64,000 nucleotides of DNA from Ignavibacteria bacterium (GTDB lineage: Bacteria > Bacteroidota > Ignavibacteria > Ignavibacteriales > Ignavibacteriaceae). The DNA is taken from the NCBI GenBank assembly GCA_017302895.1, contig JAFLBV010000001.1:1116001-1180000 (forward strand), read 5' to 3'. Of this stretch, positions 2,626-26,841 are shown piece by piece; the first letter of the stretch is position 1; the number at the start of each line of letters is the position of its first letter. Under the pieces are notes generated by a model that did no database searches, was not told the origin of the DNA, and saw nothing but the letters and a program-made list of their open reading frames with translations. The position numbers and the translations under genes are program-made.

Positions 2626-3925
2626 AAGGCTGAATAACGAGGGCTGAATATTTGAAGGCTGACGGCTGAAATTTTGAAGGATGAATAACGAGGGCTGAAT
2701 ATTTGAAGGCTGACGGCTGAAAAATCAATAGCCTGGGAATTCATTCCCAGGAAACTTGACGATATCCACAACCTTAGGCTACAGAAAAGGAGCGACAATC
2801 GTCTCGATTGTCCTACCGACAAAATTGAGCCCTTTGGGCGACATATTTTGAACACGATAATCATGATAAGAAAGAATTCTAAGAATAAAGCCCTTGTGGC
2901 GACATGTGGAAACAGCTATGATCTATGAACTACTAGCTATGAACTGGAGCAGATGAGCCCTTTGGGCGACATATGGGGAAAGCTATGATCTATGAACTAT
3001 TAGCTATGAACTGAAGCAGATTAGCCCTTTGGGCGACATGTGGGTAGAACTCCCGCGACTAATATCAAAAGAGCCCTTTGGGCGACATGTGGATAGAATC
3101 AAAAAAATAATACCTTATACCTAATCCCTAATACCTGAATAAAGCCCTTTGGGCGACATATGGATAGAATAAATTCCTGCCGACAAATTTAACGCCTCTT
3201 ACACCCCCTCCATCTCGCAGAATCGGCAATATTCCGAAAAACTTATAATAATTTCGGAATAGAATCCGAAAAACTTATAATAATTTCGGAATAAAATCCG
3301 AAAAACACATAATAATTTCGGAATAGAATCCGAAAAACACAATTTAACTGCCGATGGAGAATAAAACAGACTTCAATCTGATGATTATTTGATCCCTGTG
3401 GCGAAATGATTTGAACACGATATTCATGATGAGAAAGAATTCTAAGAATAAGGCCCTCTGGGCGGCATGTGGAAACAGCTATGATCTATGAACAATTAGC
3501 TATGAGTTGGAGCAGATGAGCCCTCTGGGCGGCATGTGGATAGAATCAAAAAATAATACCTTATACCTAATCCCTAATACCTGAAAAAGCCCTTTTGGCG
3601 AAATATGGGTAGAAGATCCCGGCATTTTCGGCAGGACAAAAGTGAGTTATTAGTTTTGAGTTATGACTTATGAATTATTCCTGGCATTTTCGGCAGGACA
3701 ATCGAGACGATTGTCGCTCCTTTTCTGAAGTTTAAGTTGTGGATAGTGTCGAGTTCCCCGGGAATGAATTCCCAAGCTATTGGTTTTCATACCTCCAAAT
3801 TCATCCGTCGATTTTCAGCCTTCAAAAATTCATCCCTCTGCCTTCAAATTTTTAGCTTTCAAAAATTCATCCCTCAGCCTTCAAAAATTCATCCTTCAAA
3901 AATCCATCCTTCTGCCTTCAAATTT
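2626..3925. repeat. 1.3 kb non-coding block of nested inverted and direct repeats
   Basis: I see no credible gene here. From outside to inside, layers on the left recur inverted on the right. 'gaaggctgaa' words at 2626-2720 answer 'ttcagccttcaaa' words at 3815-3925. A segment around 2730-2775 (hairpin ending in ttcattcccagg) answers 3730-3785. 'aaaaggagcgacaatcg' at 2787 answers 'cgattgtcgctccttttc' near 3708-3726. Nine copies of a 'gcccTTTGGGCGACATATGG' word start near 2829, 2890, 2957, 3024, 3073, 3144, 3453, 3520 and 3589. A further longer direct repeat carries 'gagaaagaattctaagaata' (2852-2893 and 3413-3455). The short open frames here are made of repeat words. Confidence 0.85.
3233..3340. 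repeat. 32-bp tandem repeat, each unit an inverted repeat
   Basis: Units begin at 3233, 3265, 3297 and 3329, an exact 32-base period with three full copies and one partial. Each unit holds TCCGAAAaac...TTTCGGA, a 7-bp inverted repeat able to form a hairpin. The array is itself bracketed by the inverted words ATCGGCA (about 3221) and TGCCGAT (about 3349). It sits at the centre of the larger nested palindrome. There are no spacers and no cas genes, so it is not a CRISPR. Confidence 0.85.
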
Positions 3926-5404
3926 TCATCCTTCGTTTTCCAGTTTTTCCACGAGGAGTTTCACATATCTGAAGTCGTCGAGGGCATTCCAGTGTTTCAT
4001 GAAGACGGAACGGAGTGCTGAGAAGTTTTCGTTGTCGGGATTTATCAGTCCGGGGATGGCACGGGCAGCAATCTCGGCGGATGTGACGAATTTTGAGATG
4101 ATGAACTCTGCTTCGGGGTTTTCGACGGAGAGTTTTTGATAAATTGCGAGATTAGCGTTGTTGATCTCTTTTGCTGAAGTGGCTTTATTGGCGTAGAAGG
4201 TACAGATATCGAGGTCGGGTCTGTTGAAATTTTTGAATTTGTCCGATTCTTCGATGAGGGAATGAAATTTGTTTGCCGATGCTATCGAGAGATTGAGGAG
4301 TTGTCCCAGTCCGGAGGCAACGGGAGGCATCACCTTATATGTCAGGTAACAGGCTGCGGCCATTGATCCGGGCCTGCTTCCTTCAAGAGAAAACATTCCA
4401 ATGTTTGGTTTGTCGGTTTTATGATATGTGTAGGGAGCCGTGTTTGAGAGGGTACCTCTCAGAGCCTCATCCTTGTAGATAACGGCACCGGCGCCATATT
4501 GCATAAAACCCTGTTTGTGCGGGTCGATGGTAATTGAATCAGCTTCTGCAAAATGCTTCATTTGGGTGTATGAATGGAGCGAAATGTCTCCTTCAGGATT
4601 GAACGGCAGAAGATTGAAGTCATCATCGAGGATGCACGATCTGAAAAATCCACCATAGGCTGCGTCGATGTGGAGATGGAAATTGTATTTCTTTTTCAGT
4701 TCGAGAATGCCTTCGATGTCGTCAGCGGTTCCTGCGCCTGTGGAGCCAAAATTGGCGATAACCATCAGTGGTTTGCTGCACTTCTTCAGGGCGTCTTCGA
4801 GGGAGTTGAGGTTCATTCTAAAATTTCCGTCAACCGCCACTTCCTCATAGGAGTCGATGCTCAAGATTTTACAGATTCTTTTCCATGAGTAGTGTGACAC
4901 TTCCGAAAAGAAGACCCTTCCGTTTCCGTAATGATCGCGGGCAGCCCAAAGGGCTTCGGTATTTGCAAGTGAGCCGCCGCTAGCGAGATGCCCCCAACCG
5001 GTTTTGAATCCGCACATTTTCAGAAGTGTATCCGTTACTTCCAGTTCCATCTCCGTGGTTACGGGACCTCCCTCCCAGGCATGATTATTCGGATTTGAGA
5101 GGATAAACGCCAGATACCCAAGAACAGAGGGGATTGTAGGGTCTTTCAGCATCTGAGCTGAATAGCGGGGATGGAAATAAGGGAGATTTTTCTTCTGAAG
5201 TTCGAGAAATTTATTCAGTTCTGAAATCAATGACTGCGATGCCTGTGACTCCGTAAAAAGGGATGTGTCTTCAGGGAAGGCGGATTTTCTTATCGCATCG
5301 TGACTGTCCACCACTTTGAGGAGGAGCTCCTTGAAAAGGGGTGTGTTTTCGCCTTTCGGTCCAAGAAACATTCCGAGCAGATCATTGATTTCGTTTTTCA
5401 TCAT
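3926..5404 (-). CDS. PLP-dependent group II amino-acid decarboxylase
   Basis: This 492-residue protein belongs to the pyridoxal-5'-phosphate group II decarboxylase family (glutamate, aromatic amino acid, diaminobutyrate or tyrosine decarboxylases). Visible landmarks are ASGGSLAN (phosphate/cofactor region, residues 141-148), His171 in EVSHYSW (ring-stacking position), Asp247 in HIDAAYGG (pyridine-N contact) and Lys297 in DPHKQGF (Schiff-base lysine). The substrate cannot be read from sequence. No signal peptide is present, so it should be cytoplasmic. The ATG at 5402-5404 overlaps the stop of the upstream nuclease gene (ATGA), so the pair is co-translated; the second ATG is an alternative start. 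The gene ends at the edge of the repeat block, whose last words run right up to the stop codon. Confidence 0.9.
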   Translation of the reverse strand: MMKNEINDLLGMFLGPKGENTPLFKELLLKVVDSHDAIRKSAFPEDTSLFTESQASQSLISELNKFLELQKKNLPYFHPRYSAQMLKDPTIPSVLGYLAFILSNPNNHAWEGGPVTTEMELEVTDTLLKMCGFKTGWGHLASGGSLANTEALWAARDHYGNGRVFFSEVSHYSWKRICKILSIDSYEEVAVDGNFRMNLNSLEDALKKCSKPLMVIANFGSTGAGTADDIEGILELKKKYNFHLHIDAAYGGFFRSCILDDDFNLLPFNPEGDISLHSYTQMKHFAEADSITIDPHKQGFMQYGAGAVIYKDEALRGTLSNTAPYTYHKTDKPNIGMFSLEGSRPGSMAAACYLTYKVMPPVASGLGQLLNLSIASANKFHSLIEESDKFKNFNRPDLDICTFYANKATSAKEINNANLAIYQKLSVENPEAEFIISKFVTSAEIAARAIPGLINPDNENFSALRSVFMKHWNALDDFRYVKLLVEKLENEG

Positions 5405-17908: not shown

Positions 17909-18047
17909 TCAGGTATTAGTTTTTAGTTATGAGTTATGAATTTCGACAACCTTAAGTGGTCGGTTCAACTAATAACTCATAATTCATAACTAATAATTCA
18001 GAACTCATAGTTCATAGTTTTATATAAGTAAATACGGAGAGAAAAGA
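17909..18047. repeat. intergenic 'taactcataattcat' inverted repeat
   Basis: The left part (about 17911-17942, 'tattagtttttagttatg', 'gagttatgaattt') recurs inverted on the right (about 17967-18020, 'aactaataactcataattc' and relatives). The space can fold into an imperfect hairpin. The last bases, TACGGAGAGAAAAGA, provide the ribosome site for the next gene. Confidence 0.75.
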
Positions 18048-19166: not shown

Positions 19167-19380
19167 TTATTTATTAACCGCGAAGAGCGCAAAATTAGGT
19201 ATTAGGTATTAGGTATTAGGTATTAGGTATTAGGTATTAATTATTGAGACTATCTCTGCGTTAATCTGTCTAATCCGCGTGCATCTGCGTCCTGTTATAA
19301 TACCTTATTTATTCTGCGTTCTTTAGATTTCCTTTGCGATCTTGGCGCTCTTTGCGGTTTCACAATTCAACGGATACACT
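19167..19380. repeat. repeat-filled nested hairpin spacer with ATTAGGT tandem repeat
   Basis: AACCGCGAAGAGCGC (from 19175) is answered by GCGCTCTTTGCGGTT (19345-19359), 14 of 15 bases pairing. Inside is a 7-base tandem repeat ATTAGGT, six units at 19194-19235, answered by 'ataatacctt' near 19296, and a central 'atctctgcgttaatctg' / 'atccgcgtgcatctgcg' word group. No gene is visible. The right arm ends about 20 bases before the HD gene's ATG, so transcript folding could affect its expression. Confidence 0.8.
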
Positions 19381-19918: not shown

Positions 19919-21922
19919 ATGATGGCACAGAATTTAGTTGAAAAGATTGTTCAGCGGTACTCCTCCGGTTATCCCGAGGGGTATAAGGTCAAGTCGGGCG
20001 ACTATGTTATGATTCATCCAAAGCATGTTATGACCCATGACAACACGGGTGCTGTGATCCCGAAATTCAAGGAAACGGGTGCCACAAAGCTCGCCAATCC
20101 AAGACAGGTAGTGAATACACTCGATCACAACATCCAGGACACTTCCGAAAAAAACCTCGAAAAATACCGTAAAATCGAAGAATTTTCCCGCGGAATGGGT
20201 GCCGATTTTTATCCGGCAGGAAGAGGAATCGGACATCAGATTATGATCGAAGAGGGATATGCCTTCCCCGGTGCTCTTGCAGTTGCTTCAGACAGTCACT
20301 CAAACATGTACGGTGGAATGGGATGTCTCGGAACCCCCGTCGTGCGTACCGATGCTGCGGCTATCTGGGCAACGGGTAAAACATGGTGGCAGATTCCCCC
20401 AGTTGCAAAAGTTGTTCTTAACGGCAGACTTCCACACGGAGTTACCGGTAAAGACCTGATCATCACGCTTTGCGGATATTTCTCCAAGGATGAAGTGTTG
20501 AATCACGCTGTGGAATTTTCCGGTGACGGAGTTCAATATCTTACAATCGATCAGAGACTCGCCATCGCAAACATGACCACAGAATGGGGTGCCCTTGTTG
20601 GACTTTTCCCTGTGGACGATGAGACTATTGACTGGCTTACTGAGCGGGCTGAATTTGTAAAAAACCGCGGTTTACAAGGCGTAAATTCCGATGCTGATGC
20701 AATTGATGGAGTCCATCCAAGAATCAATGAGAAAACCATCGACGCCTTAAGAGCGAGGATGCACGATCTCAAACCTGATGAAGACGCGTTTTATGCAAAA
20801 ATAATCACCATCAATCTTGATGCAATTGAACCTGCAGTTTCGGGTCCGAATGGTGTAAAAGTGTGGAACAAGGTGTCAGACCTTAAAGAAAGAAAGATTA
20901 AAATCGACAAGGCATATCTCGTTTCGTGTGTGAACAGCCGTGTAGAGGATATTGCAGAGGCTGCCGCCGTTCTTAAAGGGAACAAGATAGCAGAAGGTGT
21001 AAAGTTTTTCGTAGCTGCAGCATCGAGTGAAGTGCAGGCAGAGTCCGAAAAACGCGGTGACTGGCAGATACTTCTGGATGCCGGTGCGGTACCACTTCCT
21101 CCGGGATGCGGTCCTTGTATCGGACTTGGAACGGGTCTTCTCGAAGCAGGTGAAACAGGAATTTCCGCTACCAACCGTAACTTCAAAGGAAGAATGGGAA
21201 GTCCCGATTCTTTCGCCTATCTCGCTTCTCCTGCGGTTGTTGCACAGTCGGCGATTTCGGGATACATAAACTTCGAAGGAATGAAGGATGAAGGATATGA
21301 TTCAGCCCTCAGCCCTCAGCCCTCAGCCTTCACTATTCAAACTTCAAAAATCAAACCTCAAACTTCTTCCCAAATCTCCATTATTGAAGGTTTTCCGGGT
21401 GTTATTGAAGGAGAGATTATTTTCTGCCATCAGGATAACCTGAATACGGATGGAATTTATCCCGGTAAATACACATATCAGGATGATATTACACCGGAGG
21501 GACAGGCTGCGGTTGCGATGGAAAATTATGACCCCGAATTCCAGAACATTGCCAAAGATGGTGATGTGATGGTTGGCGGATTCAATTTCGGAACGGGAAG
21601 TTCTCGCGAGCAGGCTGCAACAGCTTTGAAATATCGCGGTATTTCGGTGCTGATTGCCGGTTCATTTAGCGAAACTTACAAGAGAAATGCGATCAACAAC
21701 GGGTTTCTCACCATTGAAGTGCCTGAACTGGTGAATGACCTGAAAGCAAAGTTCGGAGTTGAAAAAGCATCGGTTAAACCCGGATTGAGAATAAAAGTTG
21801 ATTTTCAGACTTCAACCGCTACTGTTGGTGACAAGGTTTATCCCTTCGGTGCCGTCGGTCAGGCAGCTCAGGAACTTATCGTTGCCGGCGGACTTGAGAA
21901 CTGGGTTAAAAATAATTTATGA
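19919..21922 (+). CDS. aconitase-superfamily enzyme, fungal homoaconitase (LYS4)-like
   Basis: The 667-residue protein is a single-chain [4Fe-4S] hydro-lyase. Domains 1-3 span about residues 1-450 with 'HPKHVMTHDNTGAVIP', 'SDSHSNMYGGMGCLG', 'YLVSCVNSR' and 'PPGCGPCIGLGTG', giving the three cluster cysteines. A linker (about 455-490) and a swivel domain follow ('NTDGIYPGKYTYQDD', 'NFGTGSSREQAATALKYRG'). The motif string, above all 'GRGIGHQIMIEEGYAFPG' and 'TGKTWWQIPPVAKV', resembles fungal homoaconitase as I remember it, more than AcnA, AcnB or LeuC. The substrate could be citrate, homocitrate or a methylated relative. The linker contains repeat-derived sequence (see 21280-21385). ATG at 19919 or 19922. 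Confidence 0.87.
   Translation: MMAQNLVEKIVQRYSSGYPEGYKVKSGDYVMIHPKHVMTHDNTGAVIPKFKETGATKLANPRQVVNTLDHNIQDTSEKNLEKYRKIEEFSRGMGADFYPAGRGIGHQIMIEEGYAFPGALAVASDSHSNMYGGMGCLGTPVVRTDAAAIWATGKTWWQIPPVAKVVLNGRLPHGVTGKDLIITLCGYFSKDEVLNHAVEFSGDGVQYLTIDQRLAIANMTTEWGALVGLFPVDDETIDWLTERAEFVKNRGLQGVNSDADAIDGVHPRINEKTIDALRARMHDLKPDEDAFYAKIITINLDAIEPAVSGPNGVKVWNKVSDLKERKIKIDKAYLVSCVNSRVEDIAEAAAVLKGNKIAEGVKFFVAAASSEVQAESEKRGDWQILLDAGAVPLPPGCGPCIGLGTGLLEAGETGISATNRNFKGRMGSPDSFAYLASPAVVAQSAISGYINFEGMKDEGYDSALSPQPSAFTIQTSKIKPQTSSQISIIEGFPGVIEGEIIFCHQDNLNTDGIYPGKYTYQDDITPEGQAAVAMENYDPEFQNIAKDGDVMVGGFNFGTGSSREQAATALKYRGISVLIAGSFSETYKRNAINNGFLTIEVPELVNDLKAKFGVEKASVKPGLRIKVDFQTSTATVGDKVYPFGAVGQAAQELIVAGGLENWVKNNL
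21280..21385 (+). repeat. intergenic-type repeat words inserted in frame in the aconitase gene
   Basis: Within the aconitase linker the DNA reads 'atgaaggatgaaggat', then three 'cagccct' words (ttcagccctcagccctcagc), 'cttcactattc', then 'aacttcaaaaatcaaacc'. These are the same words as in the non-coding block at 2626-2720 and 3815-3925. They are translated as a Ser/Gln/Thr/Pro-rich stretch without breaking the frame. Confidence 0.8.
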
Positions 21923-26306: not shown

Positions 26307-26841
26307 TAGAAGGATTCTAGGACGCAGATACACGCAGATTAGACTGATTTCCGCAGAGGGATTTTAGGACGCAGATGCACGCAGATTAGACGAGCCGAAG
26401 GCATCCCTTTGGGAGATTTCCGCTCAATTTGTAATTGGAACACGGATTAGACGGATTTCCGCAGAAGATTTTTGGGACGCAGATACACGCAGATTAGACG
26501 AGCCGAAGGCAACCCTTTGGGAGATTTCCGCTCAATTTGTAATTGGAACACGGATTAGACGGATTTTACGGATTCGCACCGATGAAGCCCTTTGGGCGAC
26601 ACATGGGTAGAAATCTTGCCGACCAAATTCAAGAGGGCCCTCTGGGCGACATATGGGTAGAAATCGTGGCGACCAAATTCAAGAGAGCCCTTGTGGCGAC
26701 ATATGGGTAGAATCTCTTAGCCAATCACAACACAGAGCACCGGACTTTTGCCCCCGGAAAAGGAGCGGCAATCGTCCTCGATTGCCCAGCCGACCAAACT
26801 TCTTCGTTCAGTAAGATAATGCGAAATCTTCTCGAATTCTT
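26307..26841. repeat. repeat block after citF
   Basis: No credible gene is seen. The block holds 'ggacgcagatacacgcag' words; a direct repeat of about 90 bases at 26367-26458 and 26475-26566 (period 108, containing 'gagccgaaggca' and 'tgtaattggaacacgg'); and a 50-base tandem repeat, three copies at about 26586-26712, of the 'gggcgacatatgggtagaa' family also seen at 2829-3610 and 57170-57240. An 'aaaaggagcggcaatcgtc' word lies at about 26758. The AbiE remnant begins just beyond. Confidence 0.85.

Follow-up and report, generated by a model that had tools for sequence, protein, structure and literature searches.

A mirrored repeat island between convergent genes of an Ignavibacteria bacterium, probably formed mainly by facing gene-end repeat stacks

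The gap between two convergent genes in a 64,000-nucleotide stretch of an Ignavibacteria bacterium genome (hereafter, the window) is a composite repeat island, the mirror symmetry of which, in what we consider the probable explanation as a whole, stems mainly from stacks of repeats that face each other at the two gene ends. The onion-like arrangement consists of three inverted layers and a direct block; its parts are of known kinds, and the locus represents an intricate case of a familiar type of repeat island, with no new mobile element. The genome that holds the window (G000) comprises 3.98 Mb in six contigs, C1, C3 and C4 among them.

Positions 2626-3925, the limits given in the initial annotation, are exactly the entire intergenic gap between the convergent stops at 2625 and 3926 in the list of open reading frames. 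Tandem units of 7 nt are called heptads here; the layers are named A, B, C and D from gene to centre, and primes mark the inverted right arm. The features are as follows.

1885-2625, + strand: rlmB (23S rRNA 2'-O-methyltransferase), the left convergent gene (TIGR00186, 222.1 bits, cut-off 160.15), whose stop is the left island edge
2625-2722, + strand: layer A, degenerate heptads (GGCTGAA/GGATGAA/TTTGAAG type) that begin at the rlmB stop codon, with two 47-nt copies 51 nt apart
2732-2751, + strand: layer B, hairpin CCTGGGAATTCATTCCCAGG with an 8-bp stem, inside the repeated block 2721-2772
2789-2813, + strand: layer C, REP-like palindrome GGAGC-GACAATCG-TCT-CGATTGTC-C, inside the repeated block 2773-2822
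2825-3180, + strand: left D block, six D copies starting at 2822, 2883, 2950, 3017, 3066 and 3137, with heptad arrays in the spacers (2916-2945, 2983-3012, 3108-3141)
3186-3400, no strand: centre, single-locus in the genome (the part in common with the relative G003 spans 3175-3407)
3233-3338, no strand: array of 3.3 copies of the 32-bp hairpin unit TATTCCGAAAAACTTATAATAATTTCGGAATA, within the centre
3389-3621, + strand: right D block, three D copies starting at 3446, 3513 and 3582, repeating the left D block in direct orientation, with a heptad array at 3554-3582
3643-3678, no strand: heptad array of the TGAGTTA type inside C', flanked by 23-bp direct repeats (3617-3639 and 3679-3701)
3696-3720, - strand: layer C', inverted C, inside block 3687-3736
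3757-3776, - strand: layer B', inverted B hairpin, inside block 3736-3787
3799-3943, - strand: layer A', inverted heptads that overrun the decarboxylase stop codon, which sits within the first heptad
3926-5404, - strand: PLP-dependent decarboxylase-like gene, the right convergent gene (PF00282, 102.7 bits, cut-off 27)

Among named organisms, those with the closest decarboxylases are members of the Ignavibacteria line, the best being Chlorobiota bacterium CHB2 (77%). Past the homologous gene of CHB2 (L137, 5975-6420), oppositely oriented A-type heptads flank, as judged by eye, a possible small-protein stretch.

The inverted symmetry of layers A, B and C is far above chance. The A+B+C arms yield a local alignment score of 104.5, compared with 17.0 for the best of 200 dinucleotide shuffles; B (2721-2772) and B' (3736-3787) are 87% complementary over 52 nt, and C (2773-2822) and C' (3687-3736) are 90% complementary over 50 nt. 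The initial annotation had described four mirrored families around a 32-bp tandem palindrome array. The array is present mid-region, and A, B and C are inverted in mirror order, whereas D (AGCCCTTTGGGCGACATATGGGTAG), the commonest family in the island, breaks the mirror: 9 of its 9 island copies have the same orientation, and the left D block scores 124.0 against the right D block in direct orientation but only 9.0 in inverted orientation (shuffle mean 10.0), so that D was rejected as an inverted layer. Our guess is that the core of D, being a small palindrome, gave rise to the earlier reading. The heptad arrays within the D blocks and C' are additional to what the initial annotation described. 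The layer C hairpin, folded as DNA, has a free energy of -7.7 kcal/mol (z = -4.3). The only Rfam match in the region, Acido-Lenti-1 at layer B, is weak and falls under the gathering score, and a structured RNA was rejected on that account.

A query composed of B and C produced 53 matches in the genome, namely, the two arms, one B-only match and 50 matches to the C part; thus, beyond the arms, layer B matches a single place, over 33 nt. The layer A query produced 37 matches, self included, the D query 92 (this query includes an ATTAGGT-type heptad array, and matches to the heptad part are counted), and the centre query only one. When 20 relatives were searched with a C-D query, 44 matches were found in the same-genus relative G003 and none in the other 19. 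In a 1.2-Mb sample of G000, all 20 scored C copies were intergenic, 54 of the 76 C and D copies lay in convergent gaps, which account for 14.4% of gap bases, and 100 of the 124 heptad arrays were intergenic. Among 19 named loci from the Ignavibacteria line and its neighbours (L138-L156, CHB2 excluded), a period-7 array (TRF score of at least 45) was detected in only 4, which does not establish such arrays as a general trait of this line.

Repeats of these kinds also occur elsewhere in the window and beyond it. A second island (26337-26798) consists of 108-bp tandem repeats of the family CGCAGAT...GATTAGACGGATTT (hereafter, K), followed by a D array with a 50-bp period and then by a C copy, and the segment 57168-57308 contains one D copy and one C copy of the same families as the 2626-3925 island. 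Further heptad arrays in the window are located at 17967-18016 (AACTCAT), 19194-19245 (ATTAGGT, 6.6 perfect copies) and 21302-21332 (TCAGCCC). Outside the window, five C copies with 53-bp spacing and a single orientation are found at C1:1377725-1377977 (L237, 17725-17977).

Repeat orientation relative to gene ends was scored in the 1.2 Mb of G000, with genes predicted by a simple codon-usage ORF caller, across 845 gaps (113 convergent, 110 divergent and 622 tandem); each family was scored once per gap half, ties were omitted, and the window locus was included. At 3' ends, 86 votes were for repeats that point into the gap and 14 for the opposite direction; at 5' ends, the corresponding votes were 31 and 14, those from families sharing a gap being non-independent. 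The 5' ends split by family: heptads and K together gave 27 votes in and 5 out (heptads alone, 23 and 5), whereas C and D gave 4 in and 9 out (C, 3 and 6; D, 1 and 3). In 400 kb of G003, the votes were 30 in and 2 out at 3' ends and 15 and 6 at 5' ends, although most of this stretch is syntenic with a section of G000, so that the test of orientation is not fully independent. An orientation purely linked to transcription was rejected, given that heptads and K point inward at 5' ends too; a single transcription-linked rule fails for all layers together because C and D are inward at 3' ends only, and heptads at both.

The order of the layers is similarly regular. Among 3' sides that hold both kinds of repeats, the heptad was nearer to the gene than C, D or K in 16 of 16 cases in the 1.2-Mb sample and in 3 of 3 in the 400 kb of G003, and the median distance from the gene end was 24 nt for heptads compared with 185 nt for C and D. 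With a distance limit of 12 nt, 37 of 85 heptad arrays adjoined a stop, compared with 8.5 expected, and 8 of 71 adjoined a start, compared with 8.0 expected. Given the inward orientation and the outermost position of heptads at 3' ends, convergent gaps tend towards the order heptad, REP, centre, REP, heptad. Further mirrored gaps are C1:1337324-1338161, C3:211897-212627, C3:177465-178110 and C1:1221482-1222093. The polarity of C alone, counted per gap, was not significant (10 to 4, p = 0.18), and some heptads within the 2626-3925 island are oriented opposite to the rule. The reading that we prefer is that each gene 3' end would bear the same stack outward, namely, stop codon, heptad array, hairpin and REP-type palindromes, and that between convergent genes two such stacks would meet face to face and give the appearance of an onion.

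Alternatively, one arm could have been copied onto the other, by inverted duplication or by template-switch (quasipalindrome) correction, in which case the orientation of gene ends would be irrelevant. Apart from the 33-nt match, no place in the genome other than the two arms holds B with its spacer, and the arms are 87-90% alike; this confinement of B' to the arms is not explained by simple independent insertion. Furthermore, the arms are more alike within genomes (166 of 228 columns identical, score 106.5, in G000; 84 of 95, score 69.0, in G003) than between them (55.5 for the left arms and 39.0 for the right arms), and in the gap at C1:1221482 the scores are 29 and 23 within genomes compared with 15 and 15 between genomes. 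However, among 99 orthologous gaps compared, 10 had similar arms in one genome or both, and only in 2 of these 10, the 2626-3925 island (right side) and C1:1221482, was the similarity within genomes clearly greater than between them; in the other 8, the orthologous ends were equally or more alike on at least one side. Concerted evolution of arms was accordingly rejected as a general rule. The K-C composite of G003 is also found at four other places in that genome (C1:346010, 346421, 252154 and, less alike, 369426), so that shared arms can arise from a mobile composite, and arm copying leaves the genome-wide inward bias unexplained. As the origin of the symmetry, arm copying thus appears possible but, on balance, doubtful. 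Under the preferred reading of facing gene-end stacks, the additional likeness of the arms (B-C in G000, K-C in G003) would probably reflect either arm-to-arm copying or reuse of a composite unit. A more far-reaching proposal is a layered gene-end rule whereby heptads, many with stop codons, would lie at the stop and Y1 palindromes only beyond them. Facing arms would then form hairpins in which template switching lets each strand correct the other, and both sides of a gap would co-evolve and change type together between species; we regard this proposal as improbable.

In G003, the same two genes, about 90% identical to those of G000, flank a gap of about 830 bp that shares the left A, B and C layers and the centre, with about 2 copies of the 32-bp unit compared with 3.3 in G000. 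The left D block has an empty site in this relative: G000 reads CCGACAAAATT, the D block and then TGCCGACAAATTT, whereas G003 has a single TGTCGACAAAATT. The right arms are built differently, with three [D' C' K'] units and AAACCTC heptads in G003 and a direct D block, C', B' and A-type heptads in G000; the C' copies of G003 are without the internal heptad array, and B' is absent at the corresponding place. The initial annotation had called for a comparison of empty sites in strains; G003 provides one for the left D block, but for the island as a whole its gap is filled. As a single-copy centre and this differently built gap both indicate, the island is not one 1.3-kb mobile unit (MITE or transposon), a candidate that was rejected. 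In two further relatives, G001 has another gene after rlmB and, by eye, no comparable island, and in G002 the contig stops at the gene, so that the orthologous gap is not comparable.

The direct repeats around the heptad array in C' are identical in 22 of 23 positions and are a candidate target-site duplication, so that this array, which the G003 copies of C' lack, looks like an insertion with target duplication; together with the heptads in the D spacers, it is the kind of structure expected if, as initially proposed, one palindromic element after another had inserted into its predecessor, leaving the most recent in the centre. The gap C1:1221482-1222093 also fits such nesting: in G000, a D block lies between inverted heptads, where G003 has just 60 bp between heptad arrays, so that the outer heptad layer is the older one, being present in G003 without the D block. 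The 2626-3925 island itself departs from this geometry. Because its centre is common to G003 and the insertions lie between the centre and the genes, the island grew laterally, and other parts are younger than the centre; the D block, moreover, is direct. The conserved centre disfavours nesting here, and we consider it very unlikely, although the elements are indeed palindromic, dispersed and linked to transposase genes, and insertions were found. Heptads as mobile elements with target duplications were rejected as a weak candidate with one good case (3617-3701): in a systematic empty-site search, 50 arrays were mapped (27 in G000 and 23 in G003), of which 29 were unresolved, 18 were occupied in both genomes and 3 were counted as empty, and of these 3, two adjoin at one site and the third is a change in copy number.

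Contigs C1 (L001, C1:1893195-1895574) and C4 (L022, C4:325223-326902) stop in or beside arrays of D and C, and the assembly is therefore probably interrupted by REP arrays. An assembly artefact or chimaera, which this coincidence might suggest, is nevertheless essentially refuted because the centre and left arm recur in G003, where the gap exists in an independent version, and the probability of such an artefact is negligible.

The initial annotation had proposed to look for a transposase that could move the elements; candidates are Y1 genes that reside elsewhere in the genome, some of them flanked by C or D copies. Five Y1_Tnp genes were identified in G000, three in G003 and two in G002, and none was found in G001 in the same search of relatives. 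Ahead of the G000 gene L005 (C3:504275), which encodes a RAYT, lie the stop of a gene, A-type heptads and, on this side only, five C copies, and its G003 homologue L283 lies between two C copies and two inverted ones; with the NCBIfam RAYT model, the two proteins score 88.4 and 87.6 bits, respectively, both above the cut-off of 80. The L001 and L003 genes each lie between inverted D arrays, and L002 and L004 each between inverted arrays of a hairpin family of their own, ending in ATGGGTAG or TTCGTAG, so that four of the five Y1 loci share a common plan of a hairpin, about 10 nt and GTAG. The L001 protein, which reads HLH, scores 88.3 bits with the IS200 model, above the cut-off of 55, and 30.9 bits with the RAYT model, under the cut-off of 80, so that no RAYT was identified as the cognate enzyme of D. 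The ends of IS200/IS605 elements carry subterminal hairpins on the same strand, not inverted; D copies are inverted across the L001 gene, and D with L001 was not classified as an insertion sequence of this type.

The closest known systems are REPs and BIMEs with RAYTs (TnpA-REP), as described in PMC2817692 (Nunvar 2010), PMC3733652 (Di Nocera 2013) and PMC6006769 (Quentin 2018). Shared with these systems are short, extragenic, multi-copy, clustered palindromes that are inverted around a Y1 gene recognised by the RAYT model, clusters in which several REP families are mixed, and a preference for convergent and co-directional gaps. Layer C is a short, hairpin-forming extragenic palindrome, with copies inverted around the RAYT gene in G003, and is multi-copy, with 50 places outside the arms, although this is fewer than the more than 100 usual for REPs (PMC2817692). 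We call it REP-like because the strict GT(A/G)G head of REPs is missing: GGAGC or GAGC is preceded by AAAA, ACAG, ATAG or AAAG, which are near-matches only. In layer D, GTAG occurs about 10 nt past the hairpin, and the family is tied to IS200-model proteins, not to RAYTs. The alternating REPs in regular modules that characterise BIMEs were not found in the island, where C and C' are inverted but distant and the nine D copies have one orientation. Qualifying RAYTs were reported in gammaproteobacteria only (Nunvar, PMC2817692), whereas those described here come from the Ignavibacteria line. The D-type repeats, which are dispersed and also stand in inverted arrays on either side of IS200-like Y1 genes, resemble the TIR-associated Y1 transposases (TIRYT) of PMC3733652 and the Y1 subclass 2.6 of Bacteroidetes, with its 'atypical secondary structures' (PMC6006769); they differ in the HLH of protein L001 and in its match to the IS200 model. 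Because the association of RAYTs with REPs is known (PMC2817692, PMC3733652), C and D may be presumed to have been moved by these Y1 enzymes.

The heptads of this genome, which are 7-nt tandem, intergenic and near gene ends, qualify as SSR arrays, and resemble the intergenic 7-nt arrays near stop codons described in PMC4692102 and PMC4679880. GGGAATC arrays of Xanthomonas lie close to the ORF that is found on the 5' side of the array, whichever strand that ORF occupies, and form 70 and 75 inverted pairs (Rehm 2015, PMC4692102), with the same inward polarity and inverted pairing as the heptads of this genome, whereas TAACTGA heptads are known from Beggiatoaceae and some Bacteroidetes (MacGregor 2015, PMC4679880). 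The present lineage differs in having several heptad types, many with a stop codon, that are outermost in islands holding REPs. Neither REPs of Ignavibacteria nor such layered heptad/REP islands were found in the open literature, most subscription journals being outside its coverage; what was not found in print is the combination of known parts and the Ignavibacteria setting.

Selection could also maintain the symmetry, through a bidirectional stop to transcription or protection of mRNA 3' ends, its origin being secondary. By pattern matching, the region contains six terminator-like patterns compared with 1.2 expected; those of C on the - strand (2812-2794) and of C' on the + strand (3697-3715) both leave the centre toward the opposing gene, and antisense read-through from the partner gene would therefore stop there, so that we suggest, from the sequence pattern, that C and C' may act as a block to such read-through. 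The concentration of C and D copies in convergent gaps points the same way. The tails, however, are weak (CTCCTTTTC, with no clean T run), the terminator-like patterns of B and of the centre are on one strand only, and the arms turn over fast between relatives. We therefore view selection as an unlikely explanation of the mirror, and under the preferred explanation, facing gene-end stacks, a two-way block to antisense transcription would be a likely side effect. In the course of events that we propose, the centre and the left A-B-C layers would be the older parts; C and probably D would be non-autonomous palindromes dispersed by single-strand (HUH/Y1) transposases whose genes lie elsewhere in the genome, a RAYT acting on C and IS200-like Y1 enzymes on D, as their observed dispersal and association with these genes suggest; and the D blocks would have entered after the split from G003, where absence was demonstrated for the left block, and grown by tandem duplication.

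Thus, the eye-catching onion is accounted for mostly by the gene-end polarity of known repeat types, with no new mobile element needed. For the Ignavibacteria line, the findings tie REP-like families to RAYT and IS200-like Y1 genes and establish heptads as a regular outer layer that adjoins stop codons. The related pair of genomes, with a site filled in one and empty in the other, offers a usable system for studying the choice of gene ends by heptads and REPs and for testing whether facing arms evolve in concert.
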